Positions 28,809 through 41,182 of a stretch of 64,000 nucleotides of DNA are shown here, one piece after another. This stretch comes from Desulfovibrio legallii (GTDB taxonomy: Bacteria; Desulfobacterota; Desulfovibrionia; Desulfovibrionales; Desulfovibrionaceae): the NCBI RefSeq assembly GCF_004309735.1, contig NZ_SIXC01000003.1:44303-108302 (forward strand), given 5' to 3'. Position numbers and translations under genes: made by a program. The notes beneath the pieces were generated by a model that ran no database searches, was not told the origin of the DNA, and saw only the letters and a program-made list of their open reading frames with translations. Positions within the stretch are counted from its first letter, which is position 1. Each line of letters begins with the position of its first letter.

Positions 28809-29702
28809 TTAAAGTTTTCCTTCCTCCACAAGCAAATCTTTCTCCCTTACCAGCATCTCCGGCAGCCGCGCCAGCAGCTGGCCGATCTGGAAGCCAGGGT
28901 CCGGGGCGCAGTCCTGGGCCAGCAGCCGCGCTGCGCGTGCGGCGGCCAGGCTGGCCCGGCAGATGGGCAGCCCGCCGCAGAGAAAGGCCGTAACCAGGCC
29001 TGTGACCAGGTCGCCCGTGCCGCCGATGCATTCCATGGCCTCCACCGAGGGCGTATCCACCGTGGCCGCCAGCATGCCGTTGCAGACGATGTGGTCCGTG
29101 CGGCCCTTGACGATGAGGTTGGGCGGGCAGTTGCCGTGGGCCTGGGCGCGGCGCATCAGTGCGGGCAGGTCTTTTTCTTCCGCCAGCAGAAAACCACGCG
29201 TGTAGAAGGGGTGGGGCGCGGTTTCGTCGGCCAGAAAGGCCAGTTCGCCCAGGTCCGGGGTGAACAGGTCGTAGGCGTCGGCGTAGCCGCTCATCTTGGC
29301 CACATACATATAGCCCGCGTCGGCCGCCAGCAGGGGGCGGACGGGCAGGGCGCTGATGGCCAGCAGCAGCCGGTTGTGCCAGTCCACGTCGGGGAAGAGG
29401 TAGTGAAAGGTGAGCCCACGTGGGGCCAGGGCGGGCAAACAATCTTCAAGATGGGCATAGACGGCGCGGCTGCCCGCGCCCGATCCCGTGTCTCCGGCCA
29501 GGAGCAGGCGCGGCGGGGGAAAGTTCAGGGCGGCGCAGGCCAGCAGGGCCGTGGCCGCCAGGGCGGGGGTGCCGCGCTGCACCGGTGTGCGGAAGCCGTC
29601 GGGAAGGATCAGGAAGCCGTCCCGCACCGCCGAGGGCGCGTCCAGGCCCGCCGTGAGCAGCGGGGCCGCGGCGTCCGGCAGGGTTCCCACAATACACCAC
29701 AT
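28809..29702 (-). CDS. YjeF-C/NAD(P)HX-dehydratase-fold protein of the selenium operon
   Basis: A 297-residue ribokinase-superfamily protein. The motifs are those of ADP/ATP-dependent NAD(P)H-hydrate dehydratase: TPDLGELAFL (148-157), LIVKGRTDHIV (about 197-207) and the GGTGD anion-hole loop (227-231). The N-terminal 60 residues are unlike YjeF and there is no epimerase domain. It is last in the yedE-yedF-DUF3343 operon, 15 nt after the DUF3343 gene, with a GGAGG site. The substrate may be unrelated to NAD(P)HX. Guilt by association suggests a role in selenium handling. Confidence 0.7.
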   Translation of the reverse strand: MWCIVGTLPDAAAPLLTAGLDAPSAVRDGFLILPDGFRTPVQRGTPALAATALLACAALNFPPPRLLLAGDTGSGAGSRAVYAHLEDCLPALAPRGLTFHYLFPDVDWHNRLLLAISALPVRPLLAADAGYMYVAKMSGYADAYDLFTPDLGELAFLADETAPHPFYTRGFLLAEEKDLPALMRRAQAHGNCPPNLIVKGRTDHIVCNGMLAATVDTPSVEAMECIGGTGDLVTGLVTAFLCGGLPICRASLAAARAARLLAQDCAPDPGFQIGQLLARLPEMLVREKDLLVEEGKL

Positions 29703-29717
29703 GGTTTCCTCCGTTTT

Positions 29718-30410
29718 TCAGGCGACAGGGCGGCTGGCAGGCTGGTCCGCAGTCTGCTGGGGCGTGCCGTCCGGTTGCCGCGTCCCCGTGTGGGGCGCGG
29801 CCATGACGGTCCTGAGTTCGTCAAAGGCCTTTTGCAGGCTGTAGCAGCACAGGGTCTGCCCCAGGCTCAGGGGGGCCGGGGCAGTCTGCAGGTCGCGGCC
29901 ACAGAGCTGACTGGCCAGCCAGGGCACGTCCGGGCAGCCGCCGCCTGAGATATTGACAATACGGCCCGTGGCGCTGTCCAGAGTGATTTTCATGTTGGCC
30001 GCACGCACCATAATCCAGCGGCCATTGATGCGGCGGGTCTGAAACAGGGACACGGGTTCCAGAAGCACATCGTGGGCGCTGACCGCGCGCAGGGGCGTGA
30101 GCCCCGCTTCGTGCAGTACGGTCAGGGCGCGGGCCTGAAGCAGCAGGGGAAAGACCACCACCATGTCGCAGCCCGTACGCAGTTCCGGGGGCGGGCCCTT
30201 GACCTCCACCTTCAGCCCGGCGGCCCGCAGAAGGCGTTCGGCCCGGATGACCTCTCCGGTATGCTCAAAAACCAGCAGACCACGGTCGTCGCAGCCCTGG
30301 CGGCCGTTTCCGGCGGGAGCGGTCGCCGGCGAACGCGCGCCCAAGGACGCGCTGGGCAGGCGACCGCGCAGAAGGGAAAGCGCCTTGCGCACGGGAGAAA
30401 AAACAGACAT
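29718..30410 (-). CDS. DUF3343 Se/S-carrier-like protein
   Basis: A 230-residue protein with a central DUF3343 (putative Se/S carrier) domain. After an Ala/Pro-rich N-terminus, residues about 45-105 contain LLVFEHTGEVIRAERLLRAAG and GPPPELRTGCDMVVVF, the family signature with its conserved cysteine. The C-terminal half adds NISGGGCPDVPWLA and QTLCCYSLQKAF, which are cysteine-rich and not part of standard DUF3343. The family co-occurs with selenium utilisation genes. GGAGG lies 6 nt before the ATG at 30410. A large hairpin separates it from yedF upstream. Confidence 0.75.
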   Translation of the reverse strand: MSVFSPVRKALSLLRGRLPSASLGARSPATAPAGNGRQGCDDRGLLVFEHTGEVIRAERLLRAAGLKVEVKGPPPELRTGCDMVVVFPLLLQARALTVLHEAGLTPLRAVSAHDVLLEPVSLFQTRRINGRWIMVRAANMKITLDSATGRIVNISGGGCPDVPWLASQLCGRDLQTAPAPLSLGQTLCCYSLQKAFDELRTVMAAPHTGTRQPDGTPQQTADQPASRPVA

Positions 30411-30422
30411 GTCGGCCTCCGT

Positions 30423-30487
30423 GGCAATCCCTCCGGCGGGCCATGACGCCGATTCCGGCGGCAAAAGGCCCGCGCGGAGGGATTGCC
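30423..30487 (-). other. Very stable intercistronic hairpin in the selenium operon
   Basis: GGCAATCCCTCCG (30423-30435) pairs perfectly with 30475-30487, and the adjoining GCGGGCC (30436-30442) pairs with 30467-30473 across one bulged base. The 20-bp stem closes a loop with its own GCCG/CGGC mini-stem. It fills most of the gap between yedF and the DUF3343 gene, which suggests transcript processing or differential expression. Confidence 0.8.
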
Positions 30488-30506
30488 GGGGATAGGGGAA
30501 AGCAGA

Positions 30507-30734
30507 TCAGGCCTTATGGATTTCCAGCAAGGTCACGCCTGCCCCCTTGTCCGCGGCGTCTGCGGCGTCCACCACAAAGCCGCGGTTGCGCGCGGCGCGG
30601 CTGACGTTTTCGCGGCTGGCGTCGTTATCCACCAGCACGCTGAAGGGGCCGTCGCCGTTCCGCTTGGCGGCGGTGAGAAACAGAAGCACGGGTTGGGGGC
30701 AGGAAAGCCCGCGGGTGTCGATGACTTGCGACAT
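30507..30734 (-). CDS. yedF: YedF/TusA-like sulfurtransferase-fold protein
   Basis: A 75-residue protein of the TusA/SirA/YedF family. The invariant cysteine is in DTRGLSCPQPVL near the N-terminus, the persulfide (or selenide) carrying position of TusA proteins. The start overlaps the yedE stop (TAATG). Coupling to yedE and the DUF3343 gene points to the selenium-associated YedF branch and delivery of reduced selenium or sulfur, rather than to tRNA thiolation. This functional statement is inference. Confidence 0.85.
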   Translation of the reverse strand: MSQVIDTRGLSCPQPVLLFLTAAKRNGDGPFSVLVDNDASRENVSRAARNRGFVVDAADAADKGAGVTLLEIHKA

Positions 30735-31828
30735 TACGCACCTCGCTTGCAGTTGGCGAATCCGATGCAGAGACAGATGCCCAGGCCTGCCAGGGTGGCG
30801 GCCATGCCGTGGGGGCCTATGCCGGCAGGGCTGGAGGCCAGACCGAAGTTGTGGGCCACGGCCGTGCCCACCAGCAGGCCCAGGGCAAAGACGGCGGCGT
30901 CGTTGTCGCCTTCGCCGGCCATGAAGAGCTGTCGTCCGGGGCAGCCGCCGGCCAGGGCAAAGGCCAGCCCGGCGGTGGCCATGCCGAGGAAGTTCCAGAG
31001 ATCGTTGGGCTGGGCCACGGGTTGATTCTCAAAACCCCAGTGGAAGGATCCGAAGCCCAGGTTGAGGACCAGGGCGGCGGCCAGCATGGCCAGAAAGCCC
31101 AGGGCCAGGTGCCATTGGTTGAAGAGCAGCACGTCGCGCAAAGCGCCCATGGTGCAGAAGCGGCTGCGCTGGGCCGCAAAGCCCACGGCCAGGCCGGCGC
31201 AGAGCGAGAGGATGAAGGGCGCGTGCTGTGCGCCGGGGCCTTTGAGAGAGTAGAACAGAACGCCGCTCTGGCCCTGGCCGCTTACTTGCGGGTCGGCCAG
31301 GGCCAGGGCCGTGAGCCCCAGCATGATGGCGGGCAGAACCAGGCCGGAGATGGCGTTCTGGCTTTGGCTGCGGCCCAGGGAAAAGCCCTTGCGGAAGAAG
31401 AGCGTGCCCACGCCCACACCGACGATGAGCCCGGCCAGGCCGAACAGGGCGTGCGCGTCGCCGCCGGCCAGGCGCAGGATGACGCGCCAGGGGCAGCCCA
31501 GAAAGACCAGCGCGCCTATGCCTGCCACAGCGCCCAGCAAAAAGCGGGTGATGGGGGCGGAACCGCCGCGCGGCTTGTATTCGCCGAAAAGCAGGGCCGC
31601 ACCAAAGGCCCCCAGAACCATGCCCATGATTTCGGGCCGCAGGTACTGCACCACGGCCGCCCGGTGCAGGCCTATGGCGCCGGCGATATCGCGGTTGAAG
31701 CAGACCACGCAGATGCCCATGTTGCCAGGGTTGCCGGCCTGCTGCAGCAGCACAGCCAGCACGCCGAACAGCAGCCCTGTAACCACAATGCCTGTGGTGG
31801 TGGCAAAAATGTTGGAGCCCGTTCTCAT
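30734..31828 (-). CDS. yedE: YedE-family selenium metabolism membrane transporter
   Basis: A 364-residue integral membrane protein with about ten helices and the cysteine motifs of YedE/YeeE transporters: GICVVCFNRDIAG, FLGCPWRVILRLAGGDAHA, SRFCTMGALRDVLLF and AGGCPGRQLFMAGEGD. This long form, next to YedF, is the selenium-associated branch, thought to import a selenium compound. AAGGAGAAAG sets the start at 31828; an in-frame ATG 21 codons upstream lacks a site. It is first in a four-gene operon. Its 125-nt leader is GC-rich and highly structured. Confidence 0.88.
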   Translation of the reverse strand: MRTGSNIFATTTGIVVTGLLFGVLAVLLQQAGNPGNMGICVVCFNRDIAGAIGLHRAAVVQYLRPEIMGMVLGAFGAALLFGEYKPRGGSAPITRFLLGAVAGIGALVFLGCPWRVILRLAGGDAHALFGLAGLIVGVGVGTLFFRKGFSLGRSQSQNAISGLVLPAIMLGLTALALADPQVSGQGQSGVLFYSLKGPGAQHAPFILSLCAGLAVGFAAQRSRFCTMGALRDVLLFNQWHLALGFLAMLAAALVLNLGFGSFHWGFENQPVAQPNDLWNFLGMATAGLAFALAGGCPGRQLFMAGEGDNDAAVFALGLLVGTAVAHNFGLASSPAGIGPHGMAATLAGLGICLCIGFANCKRGA

Positions 31829-32093: not shown

Positions 32094-32633
32094 TCAGTCG
32101 CCGGGGGCGATCAGGCTTACGGCGTCCTGGCCGTCACGTTCGGTCAGCAGCACGTCCACGTGTTCCTGACGGCTGGTGTTGACCGTGCGGCCTACATAGT
32201 CCGCCTGGATGGGTAGCTCACGGTGGCCGCGGTCCACCAGCACCAGCAGTTCCACGGCGCTGGGGCGGCCGTAGTCCAGGAGGGCCTCCAGGGCGGCCCG
32301 GATAGTGCGTCCGGTAAAAAGTACGTCGTCCACCAGGATGACCACGCGGCCGTCCACATCTTCGGGGATGCAGGACCGGCCGATGTGGGGCTTGCCTTCA
32401 AGGCTTGTCCAGTCGTCGCGGTAGAGATTGATGTCCAGAGTGCCCAGGGGCACGGGGCGGCCCAGGCCGTGCCCCAGAAGGGCGGCCAGGCGGCGGGCCA
32501 GGTCTGCGCCCCGGCGTTCAATGCCCACCAGCATGACCTGGTCGCAGTGGGCGTGGCGTTCCCGCACCTGCGAAGCCAGGCGGTCCAGAATGCGGGCGAT
32601 TTCCTGTTGGTCCAGCAAGGGGATGGTGGGCAT
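32094..32633 (-). CDS. pyrR: Bifunctional pyrimidine regulator / uracil phosphoribosyltransferase PyrR
   Basis: A 179-residue type I phosphoribosyltransferase. The PRPP-binding motif is VVILVDDVLFTGRTIRAAL, and the N-terminal LVGIERRGADLARRLA and the GTLDINLYRDDW segment are typical of PyrR. The protein binds pyr mRNA when charged with UMP and has weak UPRTase activity. No pyrimidine genes or pyr attenuator are adjacent, so targets lie elsewhere. GGAGG precedes the ATG. It is divergent from the HesB-like selenoprotein gene. Confidence 0.93.
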   Translation of the reverse strand: MPTIPLLDQQEIARILDRLASQVRERHAHCDQVMLVGIERRGADLARRLAALLGHGLGRPVPLGTLDINLYRDDWTSLEGKPHIGRSCIPEDVDGRVVILVDDVLFTGRTIRAALEALLDYGRPSAVELLVLVDRGHRELPIQADYVGRTVNTSRQEHVDVLLTERDGQDAVSLIAPGD

Positions 32634-32807: not shown

Positions 32808-33125
32808 ATGATCGAACTGAGTGAAAGCGCCCGCAAGGAGCTCGACGCCTTCTTCGCGGACAAAAAAAAGGATCCCATTCGGGTCTATATGACCGCCGGC
32901 TGAGGCGGGCCGCGCTTGGCACTGGCTCTGGACGAGCCTAATGATCAGGATCAAACCGAAGAACAGGCCGGCTACACTTTTTGTGTCAATAAAACCTTGT
33001 TGGACCAGATTCAGGGCGTGAAAATCGACCTGACCTACATGGGCTTTGCTGTGGACCCCGCAGTTCCCTTCGCCTCTGACGGCGCAAGCAGCTGCGGCAG
33101 CTGCGGCGGCGGTTGCGGCAGTTAG
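32808..33125 (+). CDS. HesB-like selenoprotein (UGA codon 32 = selenocysteine)
   Basis: A 105-residue HesB/IscA-related protein read through an in-frame TGA at 32901-32903. Frame, similarity and composition continue unbroken to TAG at 33123. The residue aligns with the conserved cysteine of the neighbouring paralogue (TAG-U-GGPRLALAL here, PGGCGGPHLALAL there). A hairpin GGCTC-TGGAC-GAGCC (32924-32938) lies about 20 nt after TGA, with G at loop positions 2-3, compatible with a bacterial SECIS. A Gly/Cys tail (CGSCGGGCGS) follows. HesB-like selenoproteins are a described family; an iron-sulfur or metal role is inferred. GGAGG precedes the ATG. Confidence 0.9.
32924..32938 (+). promoter_or_regulatory. 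Candidate SECIS apical hairpin for the HesB-like selenoprotein
   Basis: Stem GGCTC/GAGCC with loop TGGAC begins 20 nt after the UGA. The guanines in the loop and the distance fit bacterial SELB-recognised elements. A lower stem AGGC (32903-32906) with GCCT (32936-32939) is an alternative pairing. Confidence 0.5.
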
Positions 33126-33236: not shown

Positions 33237-33554
33237 ATGCTTGACTTGAGTGAAAGCGCCCGCAAGGAACTGGAAGCCTTTTTTGCGGACAAGGAAAAAA
33301 GCCCCATTCGCGTTTATCTCGCCCCTGGCGGCTGCGGTGGGCCGCATCTGGCTCTGGCCCTGGACGCCGCGGGCGACGAGGATCAAAGCGAAGAGCAGGG
33401 CGGCTTTACCTTCTGCATCAACAAAGACCTTCTGGCTCAGGTGGAGGGCGTCAGCATTGATCTGACCTACGCGGGCTTCACGGTGGAGCCCAAAAATCCC
33501 CTGCCCAACACGGGCGGCGGATGCAGCGGCTGCTCCGGCGGCTGCGGCGCGTAG
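33237..33554 (+). CDS. HesB-like protein, cysteine paralogue of the upstream selenoprotein
   Basis: A 105-residue HesB/IscA-related protein about 60 percent identical by eye to its upstream neighbour, and clearly a tandem duplicate (SESARKEL near the N-terminus, IDLTY.GF, Cys/Gly tail CSGCSGGCGA). At the selenocysteine position it has cysteine (GGCGGPHL). GGGAGGA lies before the ATG at 33237. The pair lets the cell keep both a Sec and a Cys version of the same small metal-binding protein. A terminator-like hairpin follows. Confidence 0.88.
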   Translation: MLDLSESARKELEAFFADKEKSPIRVYLAPGGCGGPHLALALDAAGDEDQSEEQGGFTFCINKDLLAQVEGVSIDLTYAGFTVEPKNPLPNTGGGCSGCSGGCGA

Positions 33555-33611: not shown

Positions 33612-33641
33612 GTGTGTCCTTCCTCCAGCAAACAGGCAGCG

Positions 33642-36600
33642 ATGGAGAATCTCAGCGCACTGCTTTCGTCCGGCAACCGGCAGATATATCTGGAGCGCAG
33701 CGGTCTGGCTACCCGCTGCCGTCTGGCCTGCGCCGCTGTGGCTGCGGGCCGCAGCGCCGTGCTGGTGGCCCGCGACAGGGAAGAATACGCCGCCGCGCGC
33801 GGCCTGCTGACCCTGTTCAGTCCAGAACTTTCGCTGGCCGACCCCCCGCCGGAACGCCCGGTGTGGGAAAGCCCCTGCCTGGGGCTGCCTACGCCGCATC
33901 AGTGGCAGGACGCCGCCGCCTGGACCGCGCGCCTGCCCGTGTTCTACGCCCTGACCCAACAGCGCCCCCGCTGTCTGGTCTGCGGGGTGGAAAGCCTGCT
34001 GCTGCGCTATATGAGCGTGGGCTTTTTTGCCGCACGCAGTCTGGATCTGCAGCGGGGCGGCGAGCTCGCGCCCGAAATGGTGCTGGACCAGGCCGCCGAT
34101 TGGGGCTACGGGCGCGTGTCCATGGTCACCCGGCCCGGCGATATGGCCCGGCGCGGCGATATTCTGGATATTTTTCCCGTGGGCTACGCCCGGCCCGTGC
34201 GTCTGGAGTTTTTTGGCGACACGCTGGAGGACATGCGCCTGTTTGACGCTGAAAGCCAGCGCTCTCTGCGCGATCTGGAGTGCCTGACTCTGCTGCCCGC
34301 CAGCCCCCTGGCCCTGGACGCGGCAGGCTTGGCCGCCGCACGGGAGCGCTGCGACCGTCTGTTTGCCGAAGGCCGCATCGGCGAAAACGAATGTTATTCC
34401 TTCAAGAAGGCCCTGGATGCGGGCGGGGCCGGGCTGCTGCCCGGTTGTCTGGACCCATCCCCCAGCCTGCTGGAGGACTGGCTGCCCGACGACTGCCTCT
34501 GGCTTTTGCCCGGCGAGGCCGACAGCGCGGATCTTGTGCGCGACGGCCGCGCCACCCTCAAAGAAAAACTGGAGGCGGAAAGCGCCCCCCTGCCGCAGCC
34601 CGCGAGCCTGGCCCTGCGCAAGGCCGCGCTGCCCGCACCGTGGAACGCCCGGCAGCGTGTCTATGCCGAGCCCCTGGTCATGGGCGTGGAGGGGCGTGGG
34701 CTGGATTTTGCCGAGCGCGCGCTGCACGGCTTTACCGATCTTTTCCCTCTGCCCGGCGCGCAGGACCGCCCATGGCAGCACTTGGCCGCTGGTCTCAAGG
34801 AATGGAGCGGGCAGCGGCGCCAGGTGGTGCTGAGCTTTGCCAGTGAACGGGGCCGGAATAAATTTCTCAAGCTGGCGGCGCAGGAGGGCATTGTCCCGGC
34901 CCTGCGCTACGCGCCGGAACAGCACGGCCTGTTCGCCTTGGTGTCCCCTTTCCGCGGCGGGGCGGAACTGGGCTGGGACAACAGCCTGGTGCTGGGCGAA
35001 AACATCCTCTACCCCAAGGCCGAAAAGACCCCCCGCGTGGCCTCCCGCGCCTTTAAGGGGCTGGACAGCTTTGACGACCTGCGCCCCGGAGATTTGCTGG
35101 TGCACAAGGAATACGGCATCGGCCGTTTTGCCGGGCTGCACCACCTGGATCTCAACGCGGCGGCCAATGACTTCATCCTGGTGGAGTATTCCGGGCGGGA
35201 CAAGCTCTATGTGCCCGTAGACCGTCTTGGCCTGCTGCAGCGCTTCAAGGGGACCGAGGGCGCGGAGCCGCCCCTGGACCGCCTGGGCGGTGCGGGCTGG
35301 ACGGCCGGACGTGAAAAGGCCCGCAAGGCCATTGAAAAAATTGCCGCCGACCTGGTGGAAATGTACGCCTACCGCAAGGTGACCAAGGGCTTTCGTTATG
35401 ATCCCCCCGGCGACCTCTACCATGAGTTTGAAGCCACCTTTGGCTTTGAGGAAACGCCGGATCAGGCCCGTGCCATTCAGGAAGTGCTGGAGGATATGGA
35501 CCGGCCCCGGCCCATGGACCGGCTGGTCTGCGGCGACGTGGGCTTCGGCAAAACCGAAGTGGCCTTGCGCGCCGCCTTCCGCGCCGCCTCCGAGGGACGG
35601 CAGGTGGCCCTGCTCTGTCCCACCACGGTACTGGCCGAGCAGCACTACCAGACCTTCCGGGCGCGTCTGGCGGGCTTTCCCGTCAATGTGGGCCTGCTCA
35701 GCCGTTTTGTGCCGCGTCCCCGGCAGAAGGAGGTGCTGCGCGCCGCCGCCGCCGGACAGGTCGACATCCTCATCGGCACCCACCGCATCCTTTCCAGCGA
35801 CGTGCGGCTGCCCAACCTGACCCTGCTCATCCTGGACGAGGAGCAGCGTTTCGGCGTGCGTCACAAAGAAAAACTCAAGGCCCTCAAAAAAAACGTGGAT
35901 GTGCTCACCCTTACGGCTACGCCCATCCCACGCACCCTGCAGCTCTCCATGTCCGGCATTCGGGAGCTTTCCATCATTGAAACGGCACCTCAGGACCGCA
36001 AGCCCGTGGCTTCGGCCGTGCTGCGGCGCGACGAGGCCACCCTGCGCCAGGTGCTGGAGCGCGAAATAGCGCGCGAGGGGCAGGTCTTTTGGGTTTACAA
36101 CCGGGTGCAGGGGCTGGAGCGTGTGGCCCAGTACGTGCGCGGGCTGGTCCCCGCAGCCCGCGTGGGCATGGCCCACGGCCAGATGTCCGAAACCGAACTG
36201 GAAAACACCATGCACCAGTTCTGGCACGGCGAGCTGGACGTGCTGGTCTGCACCTCCATTGTGGAATCCGGGCTGGATTTCCCTCGCGCCAATACCTTGG
36301 TGGTGGATCAGGCCCAGATGTTCGGCCTGGGGCAGCTTTACCAGTTGCGCGGCCGCGTGGGGCGCAGCGACCGGCAGGCTTACGCCTACTTTGTGGTGCC
36401 CGACGCCGAGCGCCTTACCGCCGTGGCTGAGGAGCGCTTGCGCATTATTCTGGATATGGACTACCTGGGCGCGGGCTTTCAGGTGGCCATGGAGGACTTG
36501 CGTCTGCGCGGGGCGGGCAATATTCTGGGCGAGGTGCAGTCCGGGCACATGTGCCGGGTGGGGCTGGACCTGTATCTGGAAATGCTGGAGGAGGCCGTGG

Positions 36601-37085
36601 CGCGCCTCAAGGGCACGCCCGAAGCCCTGGTGGGCGAAACCGAGCTGACCTTGGGCCTGCCTGCGCACATCCCCGCCACATATATTGAAGACGGGCGCGA
36701 GCGTCTGCGCTGCTACAAAACCCTGACTGCAGCCGTGGGCGGCGCGGCCCGGGAAGAGGCGGCCCTGGCCATCCGCGACCGTTTCGGCCCCTTCCCCCCT
36801 GAATTGCGAAATTTCCTGGCCGTGCTGGATTTCAAACAGTTTCTGACGGAACTGCAGGTGCAGAAGGCTGATGTCTACAGCGACCATGTGCGGCTGATCT
36901 GGCCTGAAGGACAGACCGCCGCCCGGCCGGAAGGTCTGGTAGCCTTGGCCGCCCGCACACCGGGGGCGCGCCTGCTGCCCCCGGCGGGCCTGCATCTGCC
37001 GCTGCCCCCGGATGTGGACGTGCCCCGGGGGCTGGACAGCCTGCGCGCGGCTTTGACCGGCGTGCGCGCCGCCCCGGCGGCCTGA
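33642..37085 (+). CDS. mfd: Transcription-repair coupling factor Mfd
   Basis: A 1147-residue ATP-dependent translocase that removes stalled RNA polymerase and recruits UvrA. In order it has an N-terminal UvrB-like region and the CarD-like RNA-polymerase interaction domain (LRPGDLLVHKEYGIGRFAGL). Then come RecG-like helicase motifs with Walker A GDVGFGKTEVAL and box II LILDEEQRFGVRHKEKL. After these are the TATPIPRTLQLSMSGIREL segment and a C-terminal UvrA-binding TRCF domain. The start at 33642 has only a weak site; an upstream GTG at 33612 in the same frame is possible. Confidence 0.95.
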   Translation: MENLSALLSSGNRQIYLERSGLATRCRLACAAVAAGRSAVLVARDREEYAAARGLLTLFSPELSLADPPPERPVWESPCLGLPTPHQWQDAAAWTARLPVFYALTQQRPRCLVCGVESLLLRYMSVGFFAARSLDLQRGGELAPEMVLDQAADWGYGRVSMVTRPGDMARRGDILDIFPVGYARPVRLEFFGDTLEDMRLFDAESQRSLRDLECLTLLPASPLALDAAGLAAARERCDRLFAEGRIGENECYSFKKALDAGGAGLLPGCLDPSPSLLEDWLPDDCLWLLPGEADSADLVRDGRATLKEKLEAESAPLPQPASLALRKAALPAPWNARQRVYAEPLVMGVEGRGLDFAERALHGFTDLFPLPGAQDRPWQHLAAGLKEWSGQRRQVVLSFASERGRNKFLKLAAQEGIVPALRYAPEQHGLFALVSPFRGGAELGWDNSLVLGENILYPKAEKTPRVASRAFKGLDSFDDLRPGDLLVHKEYGIGRFAGLHHLDLNAAANDFILVEYSGRDKLYVPVDRLGLLQRFKGTEGAEPPLDRLGGAGWTAGREKARKAIEKIAADLVEMYAYRKVTKGFRYDPPGDLYHEFEATFGFEETPDQARAIQEVLEDMDRPRPMDRLVCGDVGFGKTEVALRAAFRAASEGRQVALLCPTTVLAEQHYQTFRARLAGFPVNVGLLSRFVPRPRQKEVLRAAAAGQVDILIGTHRILSSDVRLPNLTLLILDEEQRFGVRHKEKLKALKKNVDVLTLTATPIPRTLQLSMSGIRELSIIETAPQDRKPVASAVLRRDEATLRQVLEREIAREGQVFWVYNRVQGLERVAQYVRGLVPAARVGMAHGQMSETELENTMHQFWHGELDVLVCTSIVESGLDFPRANTLVVDQAQMFGLGQLYQLRGRVGRSDRQAYAYFVVPDAERLTAVAEERLRIILDMDYLGAGFQVAMEDLRLRGAGNILGEVQSGHMCRVGLDLYLEMLEEAVARLKGTPEALVGETELTLGLPAHIPATYIEDGRERLRCYKTLTAAVGGAAREEAALAIRDRFGPFPPELRNFLAVLDFKQFLTELQVQKADVYSDHVRLIWPEGQTAARPEGLVALAARTPGARLLPPAGLHLPLPPDVDVPRGLDSLRAALTGVRAAPAA

Positions 37086-40433: not shown

Positions 40434-41182
40434 CCGAATGGGCCGACAGCGCGCTGGTGCTGCGTATGGGGCACTTTCGCGAGGCCGACCTCTGGCTGAA
40501 GATGCTCTGCCGCGGGCACGGGCTGCTGACCCTCTTTGCCTTCGGCGGCAGCCGCAGCCGACGACGCTTCTGCGGTTGTCTGGATGTGCTCAACAGCCTG
40601 CACTGCCGGGTCAGCGCCTCGCGGCGCGGCGATTTTCTCAATCTGGAAGAGGCCGTGCTTCTGGACGGACCGCAGACCCTGCGGCAGGACTGGCGGCGCA
40701 TGGGCCTTGCGGCCAACTGTCTGCGCTTTGTGGAAGCGCTGGGCGTTACGGCCGAAGGCGCGGCCGGGGCCTATGCCCTGGTGGAGGATCTGCGCCGCAC
40801 GCTGGAAAGCGCGCCGGCCTTGCCCGGTCTGTTCCCGCTGTTTTTCCGGCTGCGCCTGGCCGGAGTCATGGGCTTTGCGCCTAATCTGGAGAGCTGCGGT
40901 CAGTGTGGCGCGCCTCTGGAGGGGGGCGGACAGTTTGTGGTGGACGAAGGGCAGATGCGCTGCCCTGTCTGCCGCGCGGCGTCCGGACCGGCGCGTTACG
41001 GCGTGGAGCTGCGCCCAGCCGGGCTTGACCTTTTGCGGCATGTGCAGCAAGAATTGCCCTCCGGTTGGCGCGTGGACGCGCTGCCCGCCGAGGACCGGCG
41101 GGCCTGCGCCAGGGCCATCGACGGTTTTGTGCAGTACCACCTGGGGCTGGCCTGGGAAGAGGGCTTTTTTCGGCGCGTCTGA
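40430..41182 (+). CDS. recO: DNA repair protein RecO
   Basis: A 250-residue RecF-pathway mediator that anneals ssDNA and helps load RecA with RecR. The N-terminal OB fold starts ALVLRMGHFREADLWLKMLCRGHGLLTLFAFGGSR-like (residues 8-42). The C-terminal zinc site is CGQCGAPL...CPVC. It overlaps the RodZ-like gene by 4 nt and precedes glyQS. recR is also in this window, at 55.8 kb. Confidence 0.9.
   Translation: MTEWADSALVLRMGHFREADLWLKMLCRGHGLLTLFAFGGSRSRRRFCGCLDVLNSLHCRVSASRRGDFLNLEEAVLLDGPQTLRQDWRRMGLAANCLRFVEALGVTAEGAAGAYALVEDLRRTLESAPALPGLFPLFFRLRLAGVMGFAPNLESCGQCGAPLEGGGQFVVDEGQMRCPVCRAASGPARYGVELRPAGLDLLRHVQQELPSGWRVDALPAEDRRACARAIDGFVQYHLGLAWEEGFFRRV

Follow-up and report, generated by a model that had tools for sequence, protein, structure and literature searches.

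The question raised by this locus of Desulfovibrio legallii is whether a TGA triplet inside a short HesB-like reading frame ends that frame or specifies selenocysteine (Sec). In the window, i.e. the whole 64,000-nucleotide stretch of DNA analysed here, the frame starts with the ATG at 32808, contains a single in-frame TGA (32901-32903) and ends with the TAG at 33123-33125. When read through, it yields a product of 105 residues (MIELSESARKELDAFFADKKKDPIRVYMTAGUGGPRLALALDEPND...CGSCGGGCGS), with the UGA at the conserved Cys position of a UxGP motif (UGGP, residues 32-35) and a Gly/Cys-rich C-terminal tail, CGSCGGGCGS. A tandem paralogue, 64% identical to this copy, carries Cys33 (codon TGC, 33333-33335) opposite the TGA. 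The initial annotation had described the TGA at 32901 with the frame open to 33125, its position opposite the conserved Cys of the paralogue, and a loop-G hairpin at 32924-32938, and all three are present exactly there. The elements of the pair are as follows.

32808..33125, + strand: HesB/IscA-like selenoprotein gene (read-through frame; NF038090, 96.4 bits; IscA fold)
32901..32903, + strand: in-frame UGA (codon 32), proposed to be read as Sec, at the position of IscA Cys35 (by alignment)
32924..32938, + strand: core of the bacterial SECIS hairpin (conservation, compensatory changes, covariance model match at 32920-32945)
33237..33554, + strand: tandem Cys paralogue with Cys33 in place of Sec (NF038090, 101.9 bits), without the SECIS hairpin

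Standard ORF calling without read-through finds nothing here except a 226-aa frame stopping at the TGA and a 69-aa fragment starting with TTG (32916-33125). The expectation that gene callers would split the gene thus holds for a naive caller, but not for a model-guided annotator, which can find the gene via NF038090. Substitutions relative to ten relatives in the genus point to a single gene: changes at codon positions 1, 2 and 3 number 42, 18 and 136 upstream of the UGA and 86, 22 and 205 downstream, and this excess at position 3 on both sides indicates that the two halves evolve as one coding frame. Among the TGA-interrupted frames in the window with coding-like composition, as judged by eye only, no other selenoprotein was recognised; those that were recognised turned out to be adjacent genes ending in TGA, for example at 30509 at the junction of the TusA-like and Se/S-carrier genes and at 41180 ahead of a glyQ-like start.

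The same TGA recurs widely: roughly half of the genus has it, and it extends through the family and into many other families of the phylum. In the family, 264 of 288 genomes have a match to NF038090, and a large share of the matches listed contain exactly one TGA; at least one TGA copy is found in 44 of the 79 genomes of the genus; and 188 of 395 sampled genomes of the phylum match, mostly with the TGA form among the matches listed. At the level of individual genes, 173 fetched copies have TGA in this column, as do another 60 from other families. Such conservation among relatives contradicts the sequencing error that had been named as an alternative to a genuine UGA, and it likewise argues against a recent pseudogene.

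The hairpin, 20 nt downstream of the UGA, has the 15-nt core GGCUCUGGAYGAGCC, here with a 5-bp stem (GGCUC/GAGCC) enclosing the loop UGGAC (GGCTC-TGGAC-GAGCC in the DNA, 32924-32938); in the loop consensus UGGAY, GG is invariant among Sec copies. A 23-nt piece containing it folds with -8.1 kcal/mol (z = -3.0), compared with z = +0.6 for the corresponding segment of the Cys paralogue. The minimum-energy folds of longer pieces around the UGA are unexceptional (z about 0), and it is therefore comparative evidence that carries the case for a SECIS. The fetched loci comprise 173 copies with TGA at the column and 176 with Cys, corresponding to 132 and 145 distinct DNA contexts; leaving out two Sec contexts with a one-codon deletion and adding the 60 from other families of the phylum gives 190 Sec contexts. 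The complete 5-bp stem is found in 187 of these 190 but in only 8 of the 145 Cys contexts. Codon choice tells the same story: the Ala codon is GCT in 129/130 Sec contexts against 27/136 Cys paralogues, the Leu codon CTG in 130/130 against 90/134, and the Glu codon GAG in 128/128 against 40/89. Synonymous positions at which the Cys paralogues vary freely are fixed in the hairpin. The pair thereby offers a clean demonstration of SECIS selection inside a coding sequence, its Cys copy serving as internal control.

Where the stem does change, it changes in a compensatory manner. In other families, pair +26/+36 has switched from C-G to U-A in seven copies, pair +27/+35 from U-A to C-G and pair +24/+38 from G-C to U-A, i.e. 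three of the five stem pairs show compensatory changes, with nine double-change cells and 99.6% of cells paired. These pairing and double-change values were reached by 0 of 500 shuffles (which ignore kinship), and slid versions of the alignment gave at most three double-change cells; L278, a copy whose stem is broken, was excluded from this covariation alignment, yet is counted in the tally of 187 out of 190. In the nearer set, L157 also has the U-A to C-G change; this locus is labelled Betaproteobacteria, but its Sec gene adjoins pyrR, so that the label probably belongs to a misclassified Desulfovibrionaceae bin. Two Sec copies (L102 and L103) have lost one codon after the UGA (USPRL instead of USGPRL), which brings an intact SECIS 3 nt nearer to the UGA and makes them a natural test of SECIS spacing.

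Rfam, run over the whole window, returned one tRNA and nothing else, with chance matches only in a permissive search at the site. Since Rfam thus provided no usable model for this SECIS, a covariance model was built from the other families alone, without this genus or its family. In the window it matched 32920-32945 with 31.7 bits (E 9e-9), and in the genome the same site was the best of six matches (31.7 bits, E 4e-7), the next reaching 16.3 bits; all these E-values are rough. The covariance search for which the initial annotation had called therefore places the site at the top of the genome. The Cys twin was not matched in either the window or the genome search.

The machinery for decoding UGA as Sec is complete in this genome (2.68 Mb, 35 contigs), as had to be established for the SelB-dependent reading originally put forward: selA (578 bits), selB (312 bits, or 336 with a C-terminal piece, against a cut-off of 242), selD (309 bits) and selC, i.e. 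a tRNA-Sec (78 bits) with the anticodon TCA according to ARAGORN (UCA in the RNA), are all present. Within the genus, 42 of the 57 genomes that have selB also have the TGA form, against 2 of the 22 without selB (Fisher p about 3e-7, ignoring kinship, and with a few of the counted matches being weak). Both exceptions (G092, 99% complete, and G108, 79% complete) have selA, but neither shows a selB match exceeding the family cut-off. This is most simply read as incomplete assembly, and in G092 an assembly gap is probably responsible. Together with the covariance match and the conserved TGA, the sel genes support SelB-dependent decoding. As a separate observation, selD itself (L018; G000, C14:23990-24937) has one in-frame TGA, a feature known from SelD selenoproteins.

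How do other readings of the TGA fare against these data? That standard ORF calling breaks the frame here, next to an intact Cys twin, might suggest a decayed tandem duplicate, a pseudogene whose TGA is either a real stop or an error of sequencing. However, the same TGA persists amid diverged flanks in well over 100 genomes, substitutions downstream of it are of the coding type, the SECIS covaries, and Sec machinery is present in the genome. The combination of SECIS conservation, covariance match and recurrence of the TGA thus renders error, pseudogene and genuine stop very unlikely, and the decayed duplicate in particular has next to no chance of being correct. Read-through with insertion of Cys or Trp, whether by near-cognate suppression or by local recoding, would fit with Cys being tolerated at this position in the twin; yet conservation of the SECIS hairpin is confined to Sec copies, TGA copies accompany selB and a tRNA-Sec is present, which makes non-Sec read-through highly improbable. 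We hold it to be nearly certain that 32808-33125 encodes a HesB-like selenoprotein, with Sec incorporation at the UGA inferred from the frame, its conservation, SECIS covariation and the decoding genes. SelB with tRNA-Sec(UCA) would decode the UGA at 32901 under the direction of the hairpin at 32924-32938, which would then serve both as coding sequence (for LALDE) and as SECIS. With a meaningful UGA, the gene should be annotated as one selenoprotein rather than two fragments.

What kind of protein this is follows from family models and predicted structure. The HesB-like similarity noticed in the initial annotation is borne out by NCBIfam model NF038090 (IscA_HesB_Se), whose curated cut-off of 85 bits is passed, and by a predicted IscA-type fold; the Pfam Fe-S_biosyn/HesB domain scores 23.8 bits, just below its cut-off of 26.3. 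In a phmmer match to E. coli IscA (1r94), Sec32 is aligned on the first ligand Cys. An AlphaFold2 model based on 42 aligned sequences has a mean pLDDT of 86.6, with low confidence in the Cys-rich tail (residues 92-102), and its best Foldseek matches in the PDB are IscA, SufA and HI1723 (E 2e-6 to 1e-4, TM about 0.6), among which IscA 1x0g (E 2e-6, probability 1.00) indicates a HesB fold. From the IscA alignment and the fold match it follows that Sec occupies the place of the first cluster ligand of an A-type carrier: of the IscA ligands Cys35, Cys99 and Cys101, Sec corresponds to the first, and several Cys residues are available in the tail, which is gapped and of low confidence. The product is therefore predicted to adopt the A-type (IscA/HesB) carrier fold, its Sec taking the place of IscA Cys35. 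In such a protein, Sec would replace the first ligand, the Cys-rich tail would supply the others, and the likeliest biochemical role would be to bind or transfer an Fe-S cluster, iron or another soft metal at the selenolate/thiolate site. By homology, an Fe-S or metal carrier role is a guess that we consider somewhat more probable than its opposite; documentation of cluster binding by any member of the subfamily was not found in the available parts of the literature.

The Cys twin is part of a wider pattern, since a Sec gene beside a Cys twin is the arrangement throughout this family of sulfate-reducing bacteria. Of the fetched strands, 81 have the Sec gene first and 27 the Cys gene first, and others carry longer arrays; some of these loci overlap. 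In a tree of 276 rows, the Sec/Cys label requires 28 changes, at least 11 of which are forced by well-supported branches, and the window's Sec copy groups with the Sec copies of the genus and its Cys copy with the Cys copies; the underlying alignment is short (106 columns), so that fine structure is unsure. A third tandem HesB-like paralogue occurs in another genus of the same family (L039, L041-L046, L048 and L050), located some 130-175 nt downstream from the Cys copy and with E, D or A for the ligand Cys (LSFxxExGPRL); it is perhaps a non-cluster-binding member like DsrR. The Foldseek matches of the Sec copy included 2k4z, which we take to be DsrR.

The surroundings of the pair, listed below, include conserved neighbours and bring it close to genes with a likely connection to selenium.

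32094..32633, - strand: pyrR, conserved neighbour upstream of the pair (NF003549, 227.7 bits)
33612..37085, + strand: mfd, conserved downstream neighbour in the genus (TIGR00580, 931 bits)
30734..31828, - strand: yedE, putative selenium transporter (TIGR04112, 446 bits, cut-off 200)
30507-30734, - strand: TusA/SirA-like protein (part of the YedF model, below cut-off)
29718-30407, - strand: DUF3343 Se/S carrier-like protein
28809-29702, - strand: weakly YjeF-C/carbohydrate-kinase-like protein

In the genus the pair is flanked by pyrR and mfd; pyrR adjoins it across the family and in most of the fetched loci. The selenium-associated cluster on the minus strand (28809-31828) is located about 1 kb upstream, and the position of yedE near the pair is kept in several Desulfovibrio loci. 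The YedE, TusA/SirA-like and DUF3343 families have been linked to selenium metabolism (Lin et al. 2015, PMC5322559).

The adjacent Cys paralogue may be a selenium-independent version of the Sec protein, although any division of labour between the two copies is a guess from homology. As an addition to the selenoprotein reading, the pair could act as a selenium-responsive switch, in which the Sec protein works when selenium is at hand, and without selenium translation stops at the UGA and the Cys twin steps in, perhaps by way of coupled expression. This is possible, but we would not bet on it. The recurrence of adjacent pairs in both orders and the upstream Se carrier/transporter cluster (yedE, TusA-like, DUF3343) speak for it, as does a precedent from Methanococcus, where Sec isoforms give way to Cys isoforms when selenium is depleted, according to the available part of PMC11097638. 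On the other hand, the stretch between the Sec and Cys genes contains no convincing promoter or terminator, the sole promoter-like site overlapping the hairpin, and since either order occurs, one simple polar mechanism cannot fit all cases. More tentative still is the proposal of a selenium-gated pair in which an A-type carrier uses a selenolate to ligate a cluster or metal, the Cys twin substitutes under selenium shortage, and the family has repeatedly retained or re-created the arrangement, as the 28 Sec/Cys changes on the tree, 11 of them forced, would suggest. The HesB-like selenoprotein itself raises the question of what Sec does at a HesB-type ligand position and why a Cys version is kept alongside.

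Compared with known systems, the product resembles the A-type Fe-S carriers IscA, SufA and ErpA in fold, in the position of the first ligand Cys and in its Cys-rich C-terminus, but differs from them in showing only about 26% identity, in having Sec for Cys and in ending with CGSCGGGCGS where they have CGCG; it scores 24.3 with the IscA equivalog model, far below the cut-off of 150.6. It is related to the selenoprotein subfamily TIGR01911 (HesB_rel_seleno), of which it is not a member, since its 36.4 bits fall below the cut-off of 66.35. With respect to NF038090, both copies of the pair pass (96.4 and 101.9 against 85), and no difference from this group was found. In the accessible parts of the literature, HesB-like selenoproteins were reported from D. 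vulgaris and D. desulfuricans in 2006 (Zhang et al., PMC1794560), just as the initial annotation had stated for sulfate reducers, and a 2026 review gives the HesB-like motif as UxGP and mentions annotated members in RefSeq (PMC13188914); an adjacent Sec/Cys pair, or a synonymous-site test against Cys twins, is not described in those parts of the two papers. As far as these sources go, the gene shares with the HesB-like selenoprotein family the HesB domain, the UxGP motif, the existence of Sec and Cys forms and a downstream SECIS, and nothing fundamental sets it apart. It is a member of an already described selenoprotein family and not a new kind of object.
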